A program made the translations under genes and the position numbers. The notes below the pieces were generated by a model. It made no database searches and was not told the origin of the DNA. It saw only the letters and a program-made list of their open reading frames with translations. Shown here piece after piece: positions 10,014 through 53,988 of a stretch of DNA of 64,000 nt (positions are counted from its first letter, which is position 1; each line of letters starts with the position of its first letter). Location: contig NZ_MTQM01000005.1 of the NCBI RefSeq assembly GCF_001984105.1, positions 1 to 64,000 on the forward strand, written 5' to 3'. The DNA is from Microbacterium sp. CSI-V. GTDB lineage: Bacteria; Actinomycetota; Actinomycetes; Actinomycetales; Microbacteriaceae.

Positions 10014-10078
10014 CATAAACGCGATCCGCGCGCATAAACGCGCTGCCGTCGCGTTCATGGCCGCGAATCGCGTTCATC
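10014..10078. repeat. Palindromic element, family A copy 1
   Basis: A nested imperfect palindrome. The outer arm CATAAACGCGATCCGCG and inner arm CATAAACGCG on the left are answered on the right by CGCGTTCATG and GAATCGCGTTCAT, giving about 29 paired positions with A-to-G changes that keep G-U pairing. It lies 90 bp after the LacI stop and 98 bp before the ROK gene, both on the plus strand. Confidence 0.85.
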
Positions 10079-22395: not shown

Positions 22396-22459
22396 GCGTG
22401 AGTCGCCAGGATTTGTCGCTTCCACCGGCGGCCAGGCGACAATTCTCGGCAACTCACGC
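22396..22459. repeat. Palindromic element, family C copy 1
   Basis: A 64-bp imperfect palindrome with 24-bp arms (22396-22419 and 22436-22459) matching at 20 positions. It starts with GCGTGAGTCGCCAGGATT and ends in AACTCACGC. It begins 9 bp after the SDR stop, and its core is shared with copies at 35429 and 48314. Confidence 0.85.
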
Positions 22460-26056: not shown

Positions 26057-26125
26057 CGCATAAACGCTTTTCACGCGCATAAACGCGCTCTGCCCGTGTT
26101 TATGCGCGTGGATCGCGTTTATGCG
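26057..26125. repeat. Palindromic element, family A copy 2
   Basis: Outer arms CGCATAAACGC (26057-26067) and GCGTTTATGCG (26115-26125). Inner arms CGCGCATAAACGCG (26074-26087) and CGTGTTTATGCGCG (26095-26108), with one G-T pair. It lies between two convergent genes, 70 bp after the LysR-like stop and 60 bp from the ABC-F stop. Confidence 0.88.
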
Positions 26126-27866: not shown

Positions 27867-27931
27867 CATAAACGCGATCGACGCGCAGAAACACGCTGTC
27901 CACGTGTTTCTGCGCGCGAATCGCGTTTATG
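27867..27931. repeat. Palindromic element, family A copy 3 (with compensatory changes)
   Basis: The outer arm CATAAACGCGAT pairs with ATCGCGTTTATG. The inner arm is changed from CATAAACGCG to CAGAAACACG, and the opposite arm is changed to CGTGTTTCTG, so pairing is preserved. It sits between the end of the two-domain glycosyltransferase and the start of the ABC-F gene. Confidence 0.88.
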
Positions 27932-27987: not shown

Positions 27988-30357
27988 TCAGGTGAAGCGT
28001 TCGAGGCCGCCCCAGCCGCCCACCCACGCCTCGAGGTGCGGCTCGTCGCGCAGGACATGGACACCGGATGCCACGATGTCGCCGCCGTCGAACCCGACCT
28101 CGGCGCCCCACCGCTCGGCGCGGCGCCGGGCCCGACGCGAAACGGCGGTGCCGACGATCGTCCCGTCGGCGGCGCTCACGCGAAGCCGCCCCTCCGCGCC
28201 CTGTCCGAGCTGCGCGAGCCGTTCGGCGAGCGCGTCCACGCCGTCGAGCAGCACCGGCCGGTCGAGGCGCCACACGACACGCGCGTCGGGCACCGCTCCC
28301 GACCTCACCCGCGGATCCGCGGCGAGCGCGGCGATCGTCGGCGGCGCGTCGAGGACGACGGTCGCGCGCGGGAACGCCGCGAGCACGGCATCCACGCACA
28401 CGAACACGGCGGCCTCGGGATGCTCCCCCGCCAGGTGCACCACGAGGTCGGGGGCCGCGGGAAGCAGTCCCCGCCCGGCCGACCCGGCGACGGGGATGTC
28501 GCCGGCGAGACGCAGCGTCTGACGATTGCCCTCGCGGGTGCGGTCGATGTCGCGCCCCGACCAGTCGGGGCCGTCGTGCCAGGCGACGGCGTCGGGGACG
28601 TGGGCGAGCACCGCGCCGGCCTGCCACGCCCGGTGCACCCACTCCCAGTCCTCGCCGCCGTACGCGGTGAACGTCTCGTCGAAACCGCCGACCTCGTCGA
28701 AGAACCGCCGCGAGCAGGCCGACACGGCCCCGATCACGAACCGGTACGAGCGGTCGTCGGCCCGCAGCAGGTCGCCCGTGCGGGCGTACTCTTCGCGCAG
28801 CCACGCGGGTTCGGGCAGTTCCCGCTCCGGCCCCGCCTCGGCGACCGGGACCTCGACGCCGACCCCGGCGAAGTCGGCGTGCCGGCGCCGGCCCACCGTC
28901 ACGGCCTCGGGCAGGAGGGCGGGCAGGCGCGTGAGGGCACGGACGTATCCGGGTTCGGGGGTCGTGTCGGCATCCAGGAAGCACAGGACATCGCCCGTGC
29001 TCGCCGCGACGCCGAGATTGCGGGCGGCCGCCGCCCGGAAGCCGCGATCGTCCTGGCGCACGACCCGCACGCCGTCCGGCACGACCGGGGCCTCGGGGGA
29101 GCCGTCGTCGGCGACCACGATCTCGAGGCGAGCAGCCGGGTGGTCCTGCTGCGCGAGGGCCGCGAGGGTGCGGGCGAGCTCCGCGGGCTGGTCGTAGTGC
29201 GTGACGATGACGCTGACCCGCGGCGGCTCGGGCTCGCGCCCGGCGACGAGGTCCCAGCGGTTCCCGACGACCCACGGCGCGTCGTCGGGCGTCGAGTGTC
29301 CAGGACACGCCGAGTCGGGGTGGGGCGCATCGGCGTGTCTTGGACACTCGGCGGGCGCGGGCGCGGCGGACGCGGCGCCGGCGGGCGCGGGCAGGGCGGC
29401 CCACCACGCCAGGTAGGCGCGGGCGACGTCGGCAGGACCGAGAGGGACGGGGTGGATGCCGTGCCAGGTGGCATCCGGATCCTCCACCGCCGCGCGCACC
29501 GTCGCCGCGAGCGCGGACGGCTCGACGGGGAGCAGGGTCCCGGGCCGGAGCGCGGCCATCTCGTCGACGTACCGGTTGCGGAGGGCGATCGGGCGGCGCC
29601 CCCACCCGATCCACGACGTCAGCGACGCCGACGCCGACACGTGCTGGTGCGCGATCACGGGGACCGACACGGCGCGGGCGCGTTCGGCCATCTCGCGGTC
29701 GTCGAGCCACCCGGTCACCGTCACGGCGACGCCCGCGTCGGCGGCACGGCGGACGAACGCGTCGAGGTCGGCGGCGTGTCCGTCGGAGGCGCGGCCCAGG
29801 ATCGTCAGTCGCCCGACGCCCGCCTCGACGGCGGCGGCGAGTGCTTCGTCGTGTCCTTTGCCGGGGTAGAAGTACCCGAGGACGCCGATGGTGCCGTCGG
29901 CCTGCGGGCGCGACGCGGGGGCCACCGCGGGCACCGGCAGGGGCACGATCTCGACGGGTCCGTCCCACACGCCCTCTTCGGCGAGCAGGGCACGCTCGTG
30001 GGCGCTGTTGACGGCGACGGCGTGAGCGGCCCGCGTCACGGCGGCGTAGAAGGCACGGCGGCGCGGGCGGTTGCGTTCGCCGTCCGAGGCCTGCGGCACG
30101 TCGTGCAGGGTGACGGTGAGCGGATGCCGCCGGGCCAGAGCGCTGAGCCGTTCGGTCGCCTCCTCGGGCGAGGGCCCCCACAGACGCTCGGTGACATGGA
30201 CGTGCAGCGGCGTCCCGGCGGCCAGGGCGTCGAGGTCGGGGCCCGTCGCGACGCGGAACGAAGGGTCGAGAGCACGCACGTCGTCCGCGACGGCGCGCGC
30301 GTACACCGCGACCCCGTGCGGCCCGGCGGGCGCCAGAAGGACCGGTTGCATGCTCAT
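27988..30357 (-). CDS. Two-domain glycosyltransferase (GT-B + GT2) containing an in-frame palindrome
   Basis: A 789-residue fusion. Residues 1-330 look like a GT4-type GT-B domain (PVLLAPAGPHGVAVYARAV; IGVLGYFYPGKGHDEAL; WIGWGRRPIALRNRY). Residues about 375-620 form a GT2 domain with VSVIVTHYDQPAELARTL, LEIVVADDGS, LCFLDADTTPEPG and GGFDETFTAYGGEDWEW. The C-terminal 150 residues are of unknown fold. The linker (about 336-355, AECPRHADAPHPDSACPGHS) is encoded by a family B palindrome inserted in frame. The ATG at 30357 overlaps the upstream WcbI-like gene stop. It likely adds two sugars to a glycan. Confidence 0.85.
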   Translation of the reverse strand: MSMQPVLLAPAGPHGVAVYARAVADDVRALDPSFRVATGPDLDALAAGTPLHVHVTERLWGPSPEEATERLSALARRHPLTVTLHDVPQASDGERNRPRRRAFYAAVTRAAHAVAVNSAHERALLAEEGVWDGPVEIVPLPVPAVAPASRPQADGTIGVLGYFYPGKGHDEALAAAVEAGVGRLTILGRASDGHAADLDAFVRRAADAGVAVTVTGWLDDREMAERARAVSVPVIAHQHVSASASLTSWIGWGRRPIALRNRYVDEMAALRPGTLLPVEPSALAATVRAAVEDPDATWHGIHPVPLGPADVARAYLAWWAALPAPAGAASAAPAPAECPRHADAPHPDSACPGHSTPDDAPWVVGNRWDLVAGREPEPPRVSVIVTHYDQPAELARTLAALAQQDHPAARLEIVVADDGSPEAPVVPDGVRVVRQDDRGFRAAAARNLGVAASTGDVLCFLDADTTPEPGYVRALTRLPALLPEAVTVGRRRHADFAGVGVEVPVAEAGPERELPEPAWLREEYARTGDLLRADDRSYRFVIGAVSACSRRFFDEVGGFDETFTAYGGEDWEWVHRAWQAGAVLAHVPDAVAWHDGPDWSGRDIDRTREGNRQTLRLAGDIPVAGSAGRGLLPAAPDLVVHLAGEHPEAAVFVCVDAVLAAFPRATVVLDAPPTIAALAADPRVRSGAVPDARVVWRLDRPVLLDGVDALAERLAQLGQGAEGRLRVSAADGTIVGTAVSRRARRRAERWGAEVGFDGGDIVASGVHVLRDEPHLEAWVGGWGGLERFT
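29293..29350. repeat. Palindromic element, family B copy 1 (inside a gene)
   Basis: Two 21-bp arms (29293-29313 and 29330-29350) match at 20 positions around a 16-bp loop. The core is AGTGTCC(A/G)GGACACGCCG versus CGGCGTGTCTTGGACACT. It keeps the reading frame of the glycosyltransferase gene and encodes part of its interdomain linker. The other copy, at 42044-42097, is intergenic. Confidence 0.9.
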
Positions 30358-34622: not shown

Positions 34623-35434
34623 AGGTCGCGGTCCTCACGGTCGCCTCCGCGGCCCGCCGGGCCCACCTCGAACGGCAGCGCGAGGTGCTCGCCGCGGTGG
34701 CCCCCGAGGCCCTCCGCGCGGAGGTCTTCCTCGATGCGACGCCGCCGGACGGCATCCGGGATGCCGACGTCCTGACGCGGCACGTCCCGCCCGGGCCGCA
34801 CGGACTCCGCGTGGGCGCGGGCCGGAACACCGCAGCCGCCGCCGCGATCGCGGAGGGTGCGGAACTGCTCGTCTTCCTCGACGTGGACTGCCTGCCGGGT
34901 GCCGATCTCGTCGCGCGGTACACCGAGGCCGCCGCGGCGCATCCCGACGCGCTGCTCGCCGGACCCGTGACGTACCTCGCGAGCGTGCAGCGTCCGGCCG
35001 TGGCCGACCTGCCGCACGTGACACGGCCGCACCGGGCGCGCCCCGCGCTCCCCCCGGGCCAGACGCGGACCGCCGAGCCGGACGAGTACGACCTCTTCTG
35101 GTCGCTGTCCTTCGCGGTCACCCCGGCGACGTGGGAACGCCTCGGCGGCTTCCATGACGCGTACGAGGGCTACGGCGCCGAGGACACCGACCTCGCGTGG
35201 ACGGCGCGGGCCTCAGACATTCCGCTCGTGTGGACGGGCGGGGCGGACGCGTACCACCAGTGGCATCCGGTGTCCTCGCCGCCGTGGCGGCACCTCGACG
35301 ACATCCTCCGCAACGGCGCCGCGTTCCATCGCCGCTGGGGCGTCTGGCCGATGGGCGGGTGGCTGGAGGCGTTCGCCGCCGCCGGCGCGATCGAACGCCG
35401 CGGCGAGCTGTGGGTGCGTCTCCCGGGCGCGTGA
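34619..35434 (+). CDS. Family 2 glycosyltransferase
   Basis: A 271-residue GT-A enzyme. It has KVAVLTVASAARRAHLERQ at the start, VGAGRNTAAAAAI, metal-binding LLVFLDVDCLPGADL near residue 85, and a C-terminal acceptor motif GGFHDAYEGYGAEDTDLAW with the ED pair. The GTG start overlaps the previous stop. It is the last gene of the operon, and a near-perfect family C palindrome begins within its final codon region and stop. Confidence 0.87.
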   Translation: MKVAVLTVASAARRAHLERQREVLAAVAPEALRAEVFLDATPPDGIRDADVLTRHVPPGPHGLRVGAGRNTAAAAAIAEGAELLVFLDVDCLPGADLVARYTEAAAAHPDALLAGPVTYLASVQRPAVADLPHVTRPHRARPALPPGQTRTAEPDEYDLFWSLSFAVTPATWERLGGFHDAYEGYGAEDTDLAWTARASDIPLVWTGGADAYHQWHPVSSPPWRHLDDILRNGAAFHRRWGVWPMGGWLEAFAAAGAIERRGELWVRLPGA

Positions 35435-35492
35435 GGTGCCAAGAATTGTCGCTTCGGGCACGCCCGAAGCGACAAATTCTGGCACCTCACGC
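35429..35492. repeat. Palindromic element, family C copy 2 (near-perfect)
   Basis: 31-bp arms (35429-35459 and 35462-35492) match at 28 positions with a 2-bp loop. The arms start GCGTGAGGTGCCA and end GTCGCTTCGGGC. The left arm overlaps the stop codon of the upstream GT2 gene, and the right end lies 9 bp from the end of the convergent hydrolase gene, so it could terminate both. Confidence 0.9.
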
Positions 35493-35501
35493 GCTGGAGG
35501 C

Positions 35502-36662
35502 TCAGCCGAGCGCCTCCCGCAGCGCTTCGACGATGCGGGTCGCACGGGGGTCCTCGGACTCCATGCGGTTCGTCACGAACGCGAAGCCCACGCGGGCGTC
35601 GAGGTCGGCGAACGCGACCTGTCCGCCGGCGCCGTCGTGCCCGACACTGCCCGGCCCGAGGTAGCGGCGCGCGGCGGAATCCCGCTGCATTCCGGCGCCC
35701 CACTCCGGCCACGGCGCCGGAGCGTCGAACACCGGGGCACCGCTCGTGCGCAGGGCCCCGGCGGCACGGACCGTCGCGTCGTCGAGGAGCCGGACGCCGT
35801 CGGTCTCGGCCACGGTCGCCGACCACATCGCGGCGAGCGCGCGGGCGGTGCTGATCCCCCCGGCGCCGGGGATGACCGCGGCGCGGACGTCGTCGGCGTT
35901 GAAGCCGTCGTCCTCGGTGACGAGCGTGGGCGGCAGCGCGCCGCCCAGGGTCATCGCGCGGTCGAGCCAGTCGACGCCGTGCGGGTCGCGCGCGGCGGCC
36001 TGCGCGGCGACGCCCGCGGCGAGGGTCGGCCCCACTTCGAGGTGGGCGACGGATGCCGCGATCTCCGCCGGCATCCCGAGCCAGGCCCCGCCGCCGACCG
36101 CGTCCGCCATCTCGGCGAAGGCGGCGGAGATCCCGACTCCCCCGGCGCGCCGCACGATCTCGCCGGAGATCCAGCCGTGCGTGAGCGCGTGGTACGCCCA
36201 GCCTTCACCGGGGGTCCAGAGCGGCCGCTGCGCCGCGATGATCGCCGAGACGGCGTCGAAGTCGAGCAGTTGGGCGCGGCTGATGTCGACCCGCGGCGCC
36301 GAGACCCCCGCCCGGTGCGCGAGGGCGTCGCCGACGGTGACGGCGTCTTTGCCCCACGTGCCGAACTCCGGCCACAGCTCGGCGAGCGGACGGTCGTAGT
36401 CGAGGCGACCGGATGCCACGAGCCGAGCCGCGAGGATCGACATGAGCCCCTTGGTGCACGAGAACACCACCGTCGGGGTGTCCCGCTCCCACGGGCGGCC
36501 GTCGCGGGAGTCGGCGACACCGCCCCACAGGTCGACGACCTCGCGCCCGTCGATCCACACCGACAGCGCGCCGCCCATGCCCGGGTGGCTCTCGAACGCC
36601 GCGCGGAAGGCATCCGCGACCGGGGCCAACCCGGATGCCGCGGAGCCCCGCACCGCGGTCAT
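35502..36662 (-). CDS. Beta-lactamase-fold serine hydrolase (class C-like)
   Basis: A 386-residue serine hydrolase related to class C beta-lactamases and esterases. The nucleophile motif is SCTK near residue 70, the catalytic Tyr is in YHALTHGW near 156, and the third motif is GHDGAGG near 341. No signal peptide is visible, so it is cytoplasmic and more likely an esterase, peptidase or deacylase than a resistance enzyme. Its ATG overlaps the stop of the fructosidase-fold gene, placing it in the sugar operon; it may deacylate the imported glycoside. Confidence 0.8.
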   Translation of the reverse strand: MTAVRGSAASGLAPVADAFRAAFESHPGMGGALSVWIDGREVVDLWGGVADSRDGRPWERDTPTVVFSCTKGLMSILAARLVASGRLDYDRPLAELWPEFGTWGKDAVTVGDALAHRAGVSAPRVDISRAQLLDFDAVSAIIAAQRPLWTPGEGWAYHALTHGWISGEIVRRAGGVGISAAFAEMADAVGGGAWLGMPAEIAASVAHLEVGPTLAAGVAAQAAARDPHGVDWLDRAMTLGGALPPTLVTEDDGFNADDVRAAVIPGAGGISTARALAAMWSATVAETDGVRLLDDATVRAAGALRTSGAPVFDAPAPWPEWGAGMQRDSAARRYLGPGSVGHDGAGGQVAFADLDARVGFAFVTNRMESEDPRATRIVEALREALG

Positions 36663-37615
36663 CGGAGGTCCTCCGTCACGACGAGACGGTCGCCGTCCCA
36701 CCGCACCGGCAGCGGGTCGGACAGGGTGCCGATGAAGGCCCCGTCGGCGGCCACGTTCTCGAACGCCAGCAGCACCGGCCGGCCGTCGGCGTCCTCGGCG
36801 ATACGACCGCTGTAGAGGTTCTCGGGGGCGACGAGCGTCGCGCGACGCACGTCGTACGGGCCCCGCGGATCGTCGAGCGCGACGGCCCAGATGCCACCGC
36901 GCTCGCCCTCGCGATGACCGGCGAGATGTGCGGAGTCGCACGAGAACACCAGCGCCCAGCGACCCTCGACCTGCACCACCTGCGGAACCTCGAGGTGCGC
37001 GAACCCCGCCCCGGCGGTGCTGCGCGGGGGCCGCACCTCCCACCGCACGAGGTCGGGCGACCACGCGTGTCCGACGACCCCGCGATCGCGCCCCGGACCG
37101 TCGACGGCGCGGGCCGTGACGAGCATGTGCCAGCCGTCGCCGTCGGGGTCCGCGAACACCCACGGGTCGCGCCACGCCTCCTCGTGCCAGGTGCCGGCCG
37201 CGAGCGTCTCGTACCAGCGCGGGTCGGCGGCCACCACGACGCCGGGGTCCTTCACCCACTCCGTCAGGTCGTCCGACGTGGCCGCGAGCACGGTCTCGAC
37301 GTTGGTGATGCGGCCCGGCTCCAGGAACCGCGACCCGGTGTAGAACATGCGCCACCCCGCCGCCGCCTCGACGATGCTGCCGGTCCAGGTGGCCGTGGCA
37401 TCCGGAGCCTCTCCCCCGGTGGGCTCGAGCACCGTGCCGTGCACGGTCCATGAGCGCAGGTCGCTCGAGGTCGCGTGCCCCACCGTGGCGTTGCGGTGGC
37501 GCAGGTCGGGGTCGCCGAGACTGGTCGGCGCCTGCAGGAAGAGCATGTGGTGGGTGTCGCCGTCGCGGGCGAGCCAGAAGTCCCAGACCCAGTGGTCGGG
37601 CAGCGTGAACGTCAT
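36659..37615 (-). CDS. GH32/GH68-like five-bladed-propeller glycosidase
   Basis: A 318-residue cytoplasmic protein with the catalytic triad pattern of beta-fructosidases. An Asp nucleophile lies in HWVWDFWLARDG near residue 11, the RDP motif is in AWRDPWVFADP near 149, and a likely acid Glu is in HLEVPQVV near 211. It lacks the C-terminal beta-sandwich of GH32 enzymes. Downstream of a sugar importer it probably hydrolyses an internalised fructoside or related sugar. GH43 or GH130-like activity cannot be excluded. Confidence 0.7.
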   Translation of the reverse strand: MTFTLPDHWVWDFWLARDGDTHHMLFLQAPTSLGDPDLRHRNATVGHATSSDLRSWTVHGTVLEPTGGEAPDATATWTGSIVEAAAGWRMFYTGSRFLEPGRITNVETVLAATSDDLTEWVKDPGVVVAADPRWYETLAAGTWHEEAWRDPWVFADPDGDGWHMLVTARAVDGPGRDRGVVGHAWSPDLVRWEVRPPRSTAGAGFAHLEVPQVVQVEGRWALVFSCDSAHLAGHREGERGGIWAVALDDPRGPYDVRRATLVAPENLYSGRIAEDADGRPVLLAFENVAADGAFIGTLSDPLPVRWDGDRLVVTEDLR

Positions 37616-37645
37616 GATGTCCGTTTCGATGGAGGGGTCGAGCGG

Positions 37646-38470
37646 TCAGCCCTTGACCGCGCCCTGCACCAGCGCCCGGATGAACTGGCGCTGGAAGACG
37701 AGGAAGAGCAGGACGGCCGGCGTGATGATGATGAGGGCGCCCGCGTTGAGCAGGGGGATGCTGAGCGAGTACTGCCCCTGGAAGAAGGTCAGGGCACCCG
37801 CGACCGTGCGCTGCAGCGGGTCGGCGATGAGGACGACCGGGAGCAGGAACTGGTTCCAGGTCCAGATGAACAGCAGGATCGCGAGCGCCGAGAGCGCCGG
37901 CGCCGCCAACGGCAGCTGGATGCTGCGGAACTCGCGCCACAGCGACGCCCCGTCCACGCGTGCGGCCTCGGACAGCTCGCGCGGGACGTTGATGAAGTGC
38001 GCGCGCATCCAGAACACGCCGAACGGCATGAAGAGCCCGATGAGGGGGAAGATCACGGCCCACGGGGTGTTCACGGTGCCCATCGACTGCGCCTGGTAGT
38101 ACAGCGGGATGATGAGCGCCTCGAACGGGATCGTGAGGCCGAGCACGAAGAAGACGAGCACTCCGCGCCCGAACCGCACCTGCAGCGACCCGAGCGCGAA
38201 CCCGGCGAGGGTCGCGGCGACGAGGCTGACGGGCACGACGCCGAGCACGATCACGAGGCTCGAGCCCATGAGCTGCCACACGTGTCCGGTCTCGAACGCC
38301 GTGGCGAAGTTGCCCCACTGCGGGTCGGTCGGCCAGGTGAGCCCGGTCGGGTTGCGGTCGGCGGGCTGCAGCGCCGCGGAGAACATGCTGATCAGGGGCA
38401 GCAGCGTCACGATCGCCGCGACGGCGAGGAGGACGGTTCCGAGGACGCGCTCGGTGCGGCTGGCGATCAC
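37646..38470 (-). CDS. Carbohydrate ABC transporter permease (MalG type)
   Basis: A 274-residue permease with six hydrophobic segments and the EAA loop EAARVDGASLWREFRSIQLPLAAP that docks the ATPase. It ends with the MalG-typical GAVKG. It is coupled by a 4-bp overlap to the second permease. No ATPase gene is present in the operon, as in many actinobacterial sugar importers served by a shared MsiK-type ATPase. Confidence 0.9.
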   Translation of the reverse strand: MIASRTERVLGTVLLAVAAIVTLLPLISMFSAALQPADRNPTGLTWPTDPQWGNFATAFETGHVWQLMGSSLVIVLGVVPVSLVAATLAGFALGSLQVRFGRGVLVFFVLGLTIPFEALIIPLYYQAQSMGTVNTPWAVIFPLIGLFMPFGVFWMRAHFINVPRELSEAARVDGASLWREFRSIQLPLAAPALSALAILLFIWTWNQFLLPVVLIADPLQRTVAGALTFFQGQYSLSIPLLNAGALIIITPAVLLFLVFQRQFIRALVQGAVKG

Positions 38471-39438
38471 GAGTCACTCGCTCTCGAGAGGCGTTGGATG
38501 GGGAGGACCACGACGAGCACCAGCACCATGAGGACGATGCCGAAGGCGGATGCCAGGCCCACGTCGCTCTGGGTGAAGCCGATGCGGAAGATCGACAGGC
38601 CGGGCACGAGGGTCGCCCGCCCGGGGCCGCCCTGCGTCGAGGTGTAGATGATGTCGAAGCTCGACAGGGCGGCGATGACGGTGACGGTCACGAGCACCGC
38701 GATCTCCTGCCGGAGGCCCGGCAGCGTGATGGTGAAGAACTCGCGCCACCAGCCCGCGCCGTCGAGCCGGATCGCCTCGTACAGCGAGACGTCGATCTTG
38801 CCGAGCCCGGTGAGCAGCAGCACGGTGCACAGTCCCGTGAGGACCCACGAGCCGATGAGACCTACCGCGGGAAGGGCGGTGCCGTAGTCGGCGAGCCACG
38901 GCCGGGTGATCCAGCCGAGCCCGATCCACCCGAGGATCTGGTTCACGGCGCCGGTCTGCGCGTACATCCAGGACCACGCGATACCGGCGGCGGCCAGCGG
39001 GATGATCTGCGGGAGGAACAGCACCGTCTGCGCGGTGGCGGCGAAAGCCTTGTTCCGGATGCCGCGGATCAGGGTCGCGAGCACCAGTCCGAGCCCCACC
39101 GGGATGAACGTGAAGAACGCGATGAGCACGAAGGCGTTGCGGATCGCGCCGAGCAGGTCGGGGTCGGTGAAGACCGTGAGGTAGTTCTCGAACCCCACCC
39201 ACCGGGCCACGCCGATGCCGTTCCAGTCGTAGAAGGAGTACTGCACGCCCTGGAACAGGGGCCAGATGACGAACCCGATGTAGAAACCGAGCGCGGGGAC
39301 GAGCAGCAGCCATCCGGCGAGGGTCGCCCGCCGGGCCACTGCGCGTGCAGCGGCCCGGCGAACGGGTGCGGTCGTCGTCGCCGGGTCGGCGGCGTCTTCT
39401 CGGGGGGCCGCCGCGACGGCGACCGCACGATCGGTCAT
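38467..39438 (-). CDS. Carbohydrate ABC transporter permease (MalF type)
   Basis: A 323-residue permease with a cytoplasmic N-terminal stretch of about 35 residues, then six membrane segments and the EAA loop EAIRLDGAGWWREFFTITLPGLR. It forms the heterodimeric channel with the MalG-type partner. The ATG at 39438 is 2 bp after the binding-protein stop. Confidence 0.9.
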   Translation of the reverse strand: MTDRAVAVAAAPREDAADPATTTAPVRRAAARAVARRATLAGWLLLVPALGFYIGFVIWPLFQGVQYSFYDWNGIGVARWVGFENYLTVFTDPDLLGAIRNAFVLIAFFTFIPVGLGLVLATLIRGIRNKAFAATAQTVLFLPQIIPLAAAGIAWSWMYAQTGAVNQILGWIGLGWITRPWLADYGTALPAVGLIGSWVLTGLCTVLLLTGLGKIDVSLYEAIRLDGAGWWREFFTITLPGLRQEIAVLVTVTVIAALSSFDIIYTSTQGGPGRATLVPGLSIFRIGFTQSDVGLASAFGIVLMVLVLVVVLPIQRLSRASDS

Positions 39439-39440
39439 GG

Positions 39441-40796
39441 TCAGCCGACCTCGCTCTCGTAGAACTTCTGCACGCGGTCGACGAACTCCTGGCCGGTGAT
39501 CTGGCTGGTCACCAGCAGCTGCGACTCGGGGATGATCGAGCCCGCGTAGATGCCGGCGGTGGTGTTGGCCATGAAGTCGACCTGGCCGTTCTCGGCGCCG
39601 ATCTGCGCCGACATCTCCAGAGCGTTCTCGATCAGCGAGCCGGCCTGGACGGTCGGCAGCTCGAGGCTCGGGTCGCCGCCGGGTGAGGCGCCCGTGACGT
39701 CGACGATGATCTGTCGCGCGGCCGGGTCGGTGTGCACCCAGTTGAGGAAGTACACGATCTCGTTGAGGTGCTTCGACTTGGCTGCGACCGAGAACGAGTT
39801 GGCCGCGCCCATCGCGACGTGACCGGCGCCTTCTTCGGCCGGGGGCACCAGGAAGAAGCTGACGTTGTCGCCGAGCGCCTTCTGGTAGTTCGCGGCCTCC
39901 CAGTTGCCGTTGAAGGTGAACAGACCCTCACCCGCGGAGAAGCGGCTCGTGAAGGTGAAGTAGTCGATCGCGTTGATGTCGGACGGGAAGTACCCGGCAT
40001 CCGCCCACTTGCGAACGAGCTCCGCGCCCTGGACGTTGCCCGGCTCGTCGTAGCGCGCACCCGGCTCGTTGAACATCCACGACAGGAACTGGTCCTTGTC
40101 GACGTACTGGTTCATCGCGGCCTGGACCACGAAGTTCACCACGCCGTCCTTGTCGCCGGCCATGATCGGCAGGATGCCGGCGGCCTTCGCCTTGGCCATG
40201 TCGGCCTCGAGCTCGGCGAGGGTCTGCGGCGGGGCGGTGATGCCCAGCTGCGAGGCCAGGGTGTCGTTCATGTAGATGCCGGTGATGCTGTAGCCGAGGC
40301 CGAGCTGGTACAGCGAGCCCGAGCCGCGGATGCCGTCCTCGCTCATGCGCAGCGGCGCGAGCTGCGATGCCGGCCAGGCGTCCCAGCCGTACGCGTCGAA
40401 GTACGGGTCGAGGTTGGCAACGAGGCCGTCCTTGACCGTATCTCCGAGCGTGGGGAGGCGGATCAGGTCGGGCGGGGTGTCGCTCGCGAGGAGCTTGGGG
40501 GCATTGGCCGTGAGGTTCTGGAACGTGTCGCGGGTGATGTTGAACGTCACGTTCGGGTGCTGCTTGGTGAACTCCTCGGTCAGCTTGTCGGTGACGGGGA
40601 ATCCGGTCTCGTCGGCGATCGTCAGCTGGACCGGGTCGCTGGTGAGTTCGGTGCTCACGTCGGTGGCGGCGGCGGTCTGCGGTGCCGCAGCGCCGGGAGC
40701 GCAGCCGGCCAGCAGAGCGCCGGTGAGCCCGGCGATCGCCGCGAGCGCGAGGGGCGCGACGCGACGGGTGCGCGTGCGCGGGGTACGGGTGGACAT
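39441..40796 (-). CDS. Sugar ABC transporter substrate-binding lipoprotein
   Basis: A 451-residue extracellular binding protein of family 1. The signal peptide has an Arg/Thr-rich n-region and the lipobox GALLAGC with Cys at about 32. The mature part includes FTKQHPNVTFNITRDTF and INAIDYFTFTSRFSAGEGLFTFNGNWEAANY, typical for oligosaccharide-binding lobes. It is the first gene of the operon binding protein-MalF-MalG-glycosidase-hydrolase and has a well-formed promoter 94 bp upstream. The ligand is possibly a fructo- or other short oligosaccharide. Confidence 0.9.
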   Translation of the reverse strand: MSTRTPRTRTRRVAPLALAAIAGLTGALLAGCAPGAAAPQTAAATDVSTELTSDPVQLTIADETGFPVTDKLTEEFTKQHPNVTFNITRDTFQNLTANAPKLLASDTPPDLIRLPTLGDTVKDGLVANLDPYFDAYGWDAWPASQLAPLRMSEDGIRGSGSLYQLGLGYSITGIYMNDTLASQLGITAPPQTLAELEADMAKAKAAGILPIMAGDKDGVVNFVVQAAMNQYVDKDQFLSWMFNEPGARYDEPGNVQGAELVRKWADAGYFPSDINAIDYFTFTSRFSAGEGLFTFNGNWEAANYQKALGDNVSFFLVPPAEEGAGHVAMGAANSFSVAAKSKHLNEIVYFLNWVHTDPAARQIIVDVTGASPGGDPSLELPTVQAGSLIENALEMSAQIGAENGQVDFMANTTAGIYAGSIIPESQLLVTSQITGQEFVDRVQKFYESEVG

Positions 40797-40889
40797 GTCG
40801 ACTCCTTCGTCAGTGCTGCGGGTACCCAGGATGCGGGTCTTCTGGTGCGATCCTTGCTGCGGTACAGTGCTGAAAGGATTTAGCAGGGA

Positions 40890-40932
40890 TATTTACTCAG
40901 ACGATCCCGGCCCTGTCAAGATTCACTGTCAA
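40890..40932 (-). promoter_or_regulatory. Promoter of the sugar ABC operon with tandem TTGACA boxes
   Basis: On the minus strand TTGACA (40914-40919), an 18-bp spacer and TAAATA (40890-40895) form a near-consensus promoter. A second TTGACA lies 13 bp upstream (40927-40932), because the 10-bp word CTGTCAAGAT occurs twice (40913-40922, 40926-40935). The repeat may be an operator for the divergent LacI regulator. The region is an AT-rich island between the divergent genes. Confidence 0.65.
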
Positions 40933-40976
40933 GATCGTTACCGTCGGCGCGGGAGCCGATGACCGAGGAGGTGCGG

Positions 40977-41993
40977 ATGGTCAAGCGCGTCACGCTGACC
41001 GATGTCGCACGTCTCGCCGGGCTCTCCCCCTCCGCGGCATCCATGATCCTCAACGGTCGCCCCGACACCCGACTCTCCCGCGACGCCCACGACCGCGTCC
41101 TCGCCGCGGCCGCGGAACTGGGGTACCGCCCCAACGTCGCGGCGCGGGCTCTGCGCACGAGCACCTCGCACACGATCGGCTTCGTCTCCGACCTCGTCGC
41201 CACCACCCGCTTCGCCAGCGGCCTCATCAAGGGCGCGCTCGGCGCCGCCGAGGCCGCCGGCCACGTCGTGCTCGTCGCCGAGACGGGCGGCGAGCGCGAA
41301 CGCGAGGCCGAGGCCGTCTCGGCGCTGCTGGACCGGCAGGTCGACGGGGTGATCTTCGCCTCGATGCGCGCGCGCGAGATCCTCGTCCCGCCGATCCCCT
41401 CGAGCGTGCGGGCGGTGATGCTGAACGCCACCAGCGAGACGCACGTCTGCAGCGTGCTGCCCGACGAGGAGACCGGCGGACAGCGGGCGATCGAACTGCT
41501 TCGGGATGCCGGCATCCGCGACGACATCCTGCTGCTCGGCTACGACGCCGACGCCGAGCGCGACCTGTTCCGCTCGGCGACCGTCGCCGCGCGGGTGCGC
41601 GGGATCTACGACACGATGGCGCGCGAGGGCATGAGGTTCTCCCGCGAGGAGTCGATCTGGCTCTGGGAGCCCGACCACGGGCACGACGTCACGGCGCGGG
41701 TGCTGGCATCCGGTCCGCCTCCGCGCGCGATCGTGTGCCTCAACGACCGTCTCGCGTTCGGCGCCTCGCAGGCTCTCGGCGAAGCGGAGCTCCGGGTGCC
41801 CGACGACGTGGCACTGGTCTCGTTCGACAACGACGAGCTGGCGGCGTACCTCCGCCCCGGCCTCACCACGATCGGCCTTCCGCACGAGGCGATGGGGCGG
41901 CGCGCGGTCGAGCTGCTGCTCGCCCCCGACGGCCCTCCCCCCGGCGAGCACCTGGTGGAGATGCCCGTGGTGATCCGCGCGTCCCTCCCCTGA
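40977..41993 (+). CDS. LacI-family regulator of the 35.5-40.8 kb sugar operon
   Basis: A 338-residue LacI/GalR protein with helix-turn-helix VTLTDVARLAGLSPSAASMILNG at residues 4-26 and a sugar-binding effector domain (VALVSFDNDELAAYLRPGLTTIG near the end). The ATG at 40977 has a GAGGAGG site 5 bp upstream; the ATG at 40959 overlaps that region and was rejected. It is divergent from the binding-protein gene, so it presumably represses that operon. Confidence 0.9.
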   Translation: MVKRVTLTDVARLAGLSPSAASMILNGRPDTRLSRDAHDRVLAAAAELGYRPNVAARALRTSTSHTIGFVSDLVATTRFASGLIKGALGAAEAAGHVVLVAETGGEREREAEAVSALLDRQVDGVIFASMRAREILVPPIPSSVRAVMLNATSETHVCSVLPDEETGGQRAIELLRDAGIRDDILLLGYDADAERDLFRSATVAARVRGIYDTMAREGMRFSREESIWLWEPDHGHDVTARVLASGPPPRAIVCLNDRLAFGASQALGEAELRVPDDVALVSFDNDELAAYLRPGLTTIGLPHEAMGRRAVELLLAPDGPPPGEHLVEMPVVIRASLP

Positions 41994-42043
41994 CGCCGCG
42001 GTCCCCGGCGTCGCCGCGCCACGCCGCGCCGCCGCAAACGCCC

Positions 42044-42097
42044 AGTGTCCAAGACACGCCGTATGCGCTCTGCGCGATGCGGCGTGTCTTGGACACT
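42044..42097. repeat. Palindromic element, family B copy 2 (intergenic)
   Basis: Perfect 18-bp arms AGTGTCCAAGACACGCCG (42044-42061) and its complement (42080-42097), with an 18-bp loop that can itself pair through GCGC. It lies 50 bp after the LacI stop and 22 bp from the stop of the convergent GH13 gene. Confidence 0.92.
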
Positions 42098-48313: not shown

Positions 48314-48377
48314 GCGTGAGTCGCCAGAATCCGTCGCTTCCGCGACGGCACAGGCGACAATTCTTGGCGACTCACGC
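48314..48377. repeat. Palindromic element, family C copy 3
   Basis: 24-bp arms (48314-48337 and 48354-48377) starting GCGTGAGTCGCCA. One arm carries AAGAATTG and the other AGAATCCG, the same kind of asymmetry as the other copies but inverted relative to copy 2. It starts 15 bp after the ROK stop. Confidence 0.85.
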
Positions 48378-53915: not shown

Positions 53916-53988
53916 CACGCATAAACGCGATCCGCGTGCATAAACGCGTGCTCACCGCGTTTATGGTCGTGGATCGCGTTTATGCGTG
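53916..53988. repeat. Palindromic element, family A copy 4 (most regular)
   Basis: Perfect 18-bp outer arms CACGCATAAACGCGATCC (53916-53933; complement 53971-53988) and perfect 10-bp inner arms CATAAACGCG (53939-53948; complement 53956-53965). It is placed between the two intrinsic terminators in the 305-bp gap between the convergent citrate transporter and GH43 genes. Confidence 0.92.

Follow-up and report, generated by a model that had tools for sequence, protein, structure and literature searches.

A dispersed REP-like palindrome of Microbacterium within the linker of a fused glycosyltransferase gene

The window, a stretch of 64,000 nucleotides from a contig of Microbacterium sp. CSI-V, holds a glycosyltransferase gene with a palindrome in its reading frame and a second palindrome of the same family, here called family B, between two other genes (Table 1). 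The locus raises the question of how a repeat of this kind came to lie inside a coding sequence, and whether it is kept there as DNA or as part of the protein. An initial annotation of the window had reported a palindrome of 58 bp with one mismatch among 21 arm positions, in frame within a gene of 789 codons, and the coordinates confirm these points. It had also placed the second copy outside genes, with which our gene calls agree.

Table 1. Coordinates of the palindromes and of the glycosyltransferase gene in the window
Feature	Position	Strand	Remarks
Fused two-domain glycosyltransferase gene carrying the palindrome	27988..30357	-	789 codons and stop
Linker residues 328-364, pLDDT below 50, containing element residues 336-355	29266..29376	-	AlphaFold model
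Family B palindrome within the gene	29293..29350	.	Two 21-bp arms and 16-nt loop; fold z -8.7, -9.3
Arm AGTGTCCAGGACACGCCG, inner dyad GTGTC-CAG-GACAC	29295..29312	+	Exact-arm search
Arm AGTGTCCAAGACACGCCG, inner dyad GTGTC-CAA-GACAC	29331..29348	-	Exact-arm search
Family C palindrome behind the gene ending at 35434	35427..35494	.	Family B there in G295 and G299; B-like in G302 and G305
Second family B copy in the window	42044..42097	.	Between convergent genes

The palindrome family and its position relative to genes

In the copy within the gene 20 of the 21 arm positions are paired, while the intergenic copy has no mismatch over 18 arm positions. Folding predicts one long hairpin per strand for both, with energies of -39 to -47 kcal/mol and z-scores of -8.7 to -11.0. 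Exact arms (AGTGTCCARGACACGCCG) were found 55 times in the genome against 0 for the reversed pattern, and a second arm subtype, ending in CGCGG, likewise gave 55 exact arms against 0. With up to three mismatches the first pattern yielded 145 arms, compared to 6 for its reversal. From these counts and the fold z-scores, the palindrome is not a chance feature. A known RNA family was rejected as its identity, since no Rfam match above gathering scores was obtained in the 64-kb window.

The view of the initial annotation that family B is dispersed, which the exact arms already bear out, was followed up in a survey of 244,532 bases, comprising stretches around copies and the window, in which 70 elements were called. 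Of these, 69 were called as paired arms and one as a single arm. The survey was seeded with 100 of the 145 arms, among the matches listed, and copies with every arm at two or three mismatches may be missing from it; the region around G000:C4:546660 was omitted. One paired element (L126, 3034-3096) is a mispairing, which is counted in the 70 and excluded, as is the single arm, from the 68 clean pairs.

Family B is a REP-like dimer of two inverted 13-bp dyads, GTGTC-CAA-GACAC, with a spacer of 17 or 18 nt nearly throughout. Each arm (GTGTCCAAGACAC) is itself a dyad of the form GTGTC-N3-GACAC, and a copy is a near-fixed unit of 51 or 52 bp from the outer end of one dyad to that of the other, with less conserved ends reading GTTGA, GTCGA, GTTCG and similar. 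Among the 68 clean pairs, 30 are of pure CGG type at 51 bp, 22 of pure CCG type at 52 bp and 6 of pure CCG type at 51 bp, the remainder being mixed or odd. The same letter is found in at least 128 of 136 arms at 15 of the 17 positions; less uniform are position 8, the A/G centre, and position 16, where C or G defines the subtype. The spacers vary in sequence and are almost constant in length. Between different copies 63 spacer pairs reach at least 75% identity, compared to a mean of 0.2 for shuffled spacers, a weak control given that spacer edges share a consensus. These related spacers suggest that the units have been copied whole.

Sixty-nine of the 70 surveyed copies are intergenic, the one in the glycosyltransferase gene being the sole exception. 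Genes were called here by a purpose-written hexamer script rather than a standard gene finder, with a coding fraction of 0.898. Copies are held by 19 of 34 convergent, 25 of 80 tandem and 4 of 34 divergent gaps of at least 60 bp, as counted in stretches chosen around copies. A flanking gene 3' end is present for 64 of 68 copies, at a median distance of 49 bp. The hairpins are GC-rich, as those of intrinsic terminators are, but the U tract behind the hairpin is lacking, and none of the 68 copies has seven or more T in the 12 nt on either side. In other genomes, copies within genes numbered 0 of 53 in the stretches of G198 (its glycosyltransferase gene not included), 0 of 18 in ten carrier loci, 0 of 27 in G248, 0 of 54 in G093 and 1 of 25 in G007; this last copy extends into the predicted reading frame of a gene at its end and provides the stop codon. 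Four copies within genes among 79 orthologue loci are all the same glycosyltransferase insertion. A chromosome-architecture signal was also considered and dropped, as neither the positions of copies in G198 (100 of 110, among the matches listed), G093, G248 and G007 nor GC-skew samples of G198 gave a clear pattern.

Insertion into the linker and conservation of the arms

The palindrome encodes residues 336 to 355 of the protein, AECPRHADAPHPDSACPGHS beginning at residue 336. AlphaFold gave a poor model from 7 sequences (pLDDT 48) and a better one from 67 (mean pLDDT 87.7); in the latter, which was used here, values fall below 50 only at residues 328-364 and 624-631. In this model the element lies at a flexible linker between the domains, as had been proposed from the letters, and the linker is predicted to be disordered, which would account for the copy being tolerated there. 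Of the domain names given earlier, GT2 stands (PF00535, E 3.8e-18, with chondroitin polymerase K4CP as the best fold matches of the model), whereas GT-B is tied to a sub-threshold match of the first domain to PF13439, at 23.1 of 28.5 bits. Beside the palindrome (29374-29420, and in the linkers of L041 and L045) the linker has been enlarged by GC-rich Ala/Pro codons, to lengths that vary between species (gaps of 42 to 198 nt).

In the distant loci each domain has a gene of its own in 69 of 69 cases with both anchors (72 loci less L081, L082 and L085, each without an anchor), the two lying in different phase, with a stop in the first frame. A single open frame across both domains is found in the window and in L041 to L047, and L174, from the same species, has the same linker frame. 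These nine fused genes form one clade with support of 100/98. Six of them carry the palindrome (the window, L174, L041, L042, L045 and L046) at one site, in one frame and with alignable spacers, and it is absent from L043, L044 and L047. The comparison with orthologues proposed in the initial annotation thus gives three fused genes lacking the segment, rather than the same residues throughout, and supports, on alignment evidence, an insertion of the palindrome into the fused gene. L043 and L044 have short linkers of 45 and 42 nt with no obvious trace of the element. L043 is the first branch in DNA trees, which leave the order of L044 and L045 unsettled, and L047 is nested among carriers and has therefore probably lost the palindrome. 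The concatenated tree needs three presence/absence changes; a grouping that needs two has a p-AU of 0.49 and is not rejected.

The order we prefer is fusion first, then insertion, followed by one loss. Alternatively, the insertion itself may have caused the fusion, an element behind the first gene having bypassed its stop and joined the frames, with later losses. The preference of copies for places behind gene ends would suit such an event, as would the copy of G007 at a gene end and the near coincidence of the fused clade with the carriers. However, three losses would be needed, and L043 and L044 are fused with short linkers and show no obvious remnant, and we regard this order of events as improbable.

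In an alignment of the six carriers, 4 of 40 arm columns are variable, compared to 8 of 17 in the spacer (Fisher 0.0035). Of the 13 third codon positions in the arms 2 vary, whereas stretches of 13 codons in the GT2 domain have 7.9 on average, and 0 of 412 windows there were as low. Change is rarer in the arms than in the spacer, in the flanks and at third codon positions across the gene. When all codon positions are counted the difference shrinks, and 5 of 412 windows, each of 40 nt, show no more variation than the arms. The arm codons TGT, CCA, AGA and CCT are used 0, 1, 0 and 2 times in the GT2 domains of the six carriers. The same-species copy L174 carries changes at two arm positions, which shows that the arms are not exempt from mutation.

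Intergenic orthologues behave in the same way. In 17 pairs between G000 and G198, changes number 6 of 577 in arms, 15 of 290 in spacers and 116 of 1814 in flanks; copies were kept where one alignment spanned element and flanks at more than 88% identity, and one of them (L144) proved to be an exchanged copy. Because intergenic and in-gene arms are conserved alike, the conserving force appears to act on the element wherever it is located. At arm positions 1-15 minus 8 (14 positions) there are 20 one-armed deviations and 0 common to both arms, and at position 8 covariation of the arms is not significant (Fisher 0.25). With no compensated arm change, conservation seems to concern the sequence and not the stem, and a stem-driven explanation is unsupported. 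What is conserved is the DNA letters of the arms and not the encoded peptide, so that exaptation as a peptide, which had been suggested for this segment, is not indicated. As the dyads are kept letter by letter and the spacer is not, in intergenic and in-gene copies, each dyad is a putative protein recognition site.

Gene-end slots occupied by more than one palindrome family

Two further families of palindromes are present in the window. Family A palindromes lie at 10014-10077, 26057-26122, 27868-27931 and 53916-53988; their arms hold CATAAACGCG or a near variant twice, and all are intergenic by the hexamer calls. Family C palindromes (GCGTGAG...TGTCGC), which are unrelated to family B, lie at 22396-22459, 35429-35492 and 48314-48377. 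The copy at 35427-35494 begins at the stop codon of the preceding gene, and its GCGTGA may supply that stop.

The occupants of two slots were compared between genomes, with families assigned by eye at both. The slot at 42045 holds family B in the window genome, G295, G296 and G299, family C in G198 (of the same species), G300, G301, G297 and G298, and a B-like palindrome in G302, G303 and G305. The slot following the gene that ends at 35434 is occupied by a palindrome in all 12 genomes, B or B-like in four (Table 1) and C in eight, namely the window genome, G198, G296 (where the contig ends inside the palindrome), G300, G301, G297, G298 and G303 (degenerate); at least four changes are required on the tree for this slot. 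A gene block of 6.6 kb (35500-42040) lies between the C and B palindromes of the window. In G297, G298, G299, G301, G302 and G305 the block is absent and the outer genes are neighbours with one palindrome between them, and because both slots are a single junction in these six genomes they are not independent. Recombination between species could move slot alleles.

Between two strains of one species, 48 family B slots were compared by collinear positions, of which 9 were not located and 2 were set aside with flanks below 85% identity. The 37 located with good flanks comprise 32 with the same copy, three with another B copy, one with a C palindrome and one without B but with a 1.3-kb insertion; no clean empty site was found among them. 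At the L121 slot the same copy has a 1-bp deletion, and at one divergent slot the subtype of the occupant has changed while the flanks are alike to within about 10 bp. The insertion that breaks the B slot in G198 (L335, 11203-12485) carries five copies of the palindromic motif GCGAAACTCCTGAG or its complement. In the window, four of five convergent gaps of at least 40 bp contain a palindrome of family A, B or C with a score of 12 or more, compared to 0 of 7 divergent gaps.

One reading of these slots is that the copies are no longer mobile and are kept as hairpins at gene ends, as bidirectional terminators or protectors of mRNA 3' ends, with unrelated families being interchangeable. The closeness of copies to gene 3' ends, the filled convergent gaps of the window and the occupied 35434 slot in every genome are all in keeping with it. 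However, a pure hairpin role would predict compensated changes in the arms, which were not seen, and the copies lack T-rich tails, four lie between divergent genes, and in the glycosyltransferase gene, whose reading frame is conserved, the copy evidently leaves expression uninterrupted. We consider a role of this kind possible but rather doubtful. Equally tentative is the related proposal that gene-end slots are retained and their occupants exchangeable, such that B, C and perhaps A would be equivalent hairpin cassettes replacing one another without a known transposase. The copy in the glycosyltransferase gene would then be a rare escapee into a coding frame, and would show that the arms keep their sequence even in such a place.

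Distribution, relation to known repeats and proposed history

At least one exact CCG-type arm was found in 30 of 295 congeners. In a family-wide draw of 299 genomes, 293 of them from other genera, the only match was in the element's own genome. Exact arms of both subtypes in the genomes of L041 to L047 number 68, 76, 3, 68, 41, 81 and 59, respectively. One exact arm and no second arm is present in each of seven viral contigs (L203-L209), five of them with near-identical flanks. Neither a candidate copying enzyme nor a target duplication was recognised, and a Y1/RAYT transposase was not found in carriers with the PF01797 profile (E 0.001). That the element is mobile and tolerated, or exapted, had been suggested at the outset; insertion at a linker is supported, whereas present mobility is not, given the 37 slots without a clean empty site. 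The mobility of the family is an inference rather than an observation.

Two known kinds of paired repeat were weighed as identities for family B. DNA uptake sequences occur singly in great number, while family B is single in 1 of 70 elements. That paired uptake sequences act here as terminators is therefore very improbable, in spite of the conserved short sequence, its inverted pairing, its location behind genes and the ability of uptake sequences to form terminator hairpins (PMC2267715). The second is a REPIN mobilised by a RAYT. Family B does consist of two short units in inverted orientation, each bearing a hairpin and parted by a short spacer, and it occurs in tens of copies, clustered and placed at gene ends in the manner described for REPs (PMC3733652). 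However, single arms are almost absent, and PF01797 was detected in just 1 of 295 congeners, G041, which itself has no exact CCG-type arm. With the profile absent from carriers this identity was rejected, and we consider it highly unlikely.

By description, GTAG and CGTC REPs are small palindromes, often inverted dimers, that lie mostly behind genes and sometimes in reading frames, the CGTC type having no dedicated transposase (PMC3733652). Family B resembles them in all of these respects, an occasional in-gene copy included, but differs in its arm of a 5-bp stem and 3-nt loop, its near-fixed spacer and the near absence of single arms. The intragenic copies treated in that account are from other phyla. 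With MITEs family B shares a short non-coding unit, inverted ends and many copies, terminal inverted repeats being present, but no target duplication was recognised, where no clean empty site offered a comparison, and no parent insertion sequence in a transposase search that covered Y1.

Rickettsia palindromic elements are palindromic repeats lying in frame within the reading frame of a conserved protein, described in the first report as about 150 bp long and present in many genes (PMC10969869, PMC3733652). The comparison with them made in the initial annotation is apt for the in-frame insertion into the frame of a conserved protein. Compared by description, however, family B is shorter, at 58 bp, and enters one gene in 70 surveyed places rather than many. 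The accompanying statement that no such case was known in Actinobacteria is contradicted by Cod-2 of Corynebacterium diphtheriae, a 32-bp repeat with 43 members that is classed as genic, lies in various coding sequences in different frames, and was compared by its authors with the Rickettsia elements (PMC2267715). Cod-2, as described there, is likewise a small in-gene repeat of an actinobacterium, set apart from family B by its length and genic placement; family B measures 51-58 bp and is intergenic in 69 of 70 copies. In-gene repeats as such are thus already known. By analogy, family B may work like a REP dimer or a MITE, and its glycosyltransferase copy like a Rickettsia palindromic element. 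Among the papers listed by literature searches with thin coverage of subscription journals, no description of family B or of a fitting Microbacterium repeat was found.

The history that we consider probable begins with a palindrome that is REP-like, non-autonomous and dispersed in some Microbacterium species. Its copies would become established behind genes and probably be transcribed there as strong hairpins. In the ancestor of the clade, two neighbouring glycosyltransferase genes would have become fused through a linker, which one copy would later have entered with the frame kept; this copy was probably lost again in the lineage of L047. Each arm may serve as the recognition site of a protein, either a copying enzyme or a DNA-binding protein, for which the dyads would be kept. 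Gene conversion between copies would be an alternative route to uniform arms.

What appears new here is an actinobacterial REP-like family for which no transposase was recognised and of which one copy is inserted in frame in the linker between two protein domains. As carriers, non-carriers and unfused outgroups are all sequenced, gain, tolerance and loss of the element can be traced. The presence of different palindrome families at the same gene-end slot makes the function of such repeats testable. If unrelated sequences can replace each other, it is shape or position that matters; if each letter of the arms is conserved and changes are not compensated, the arms are read by a protein.
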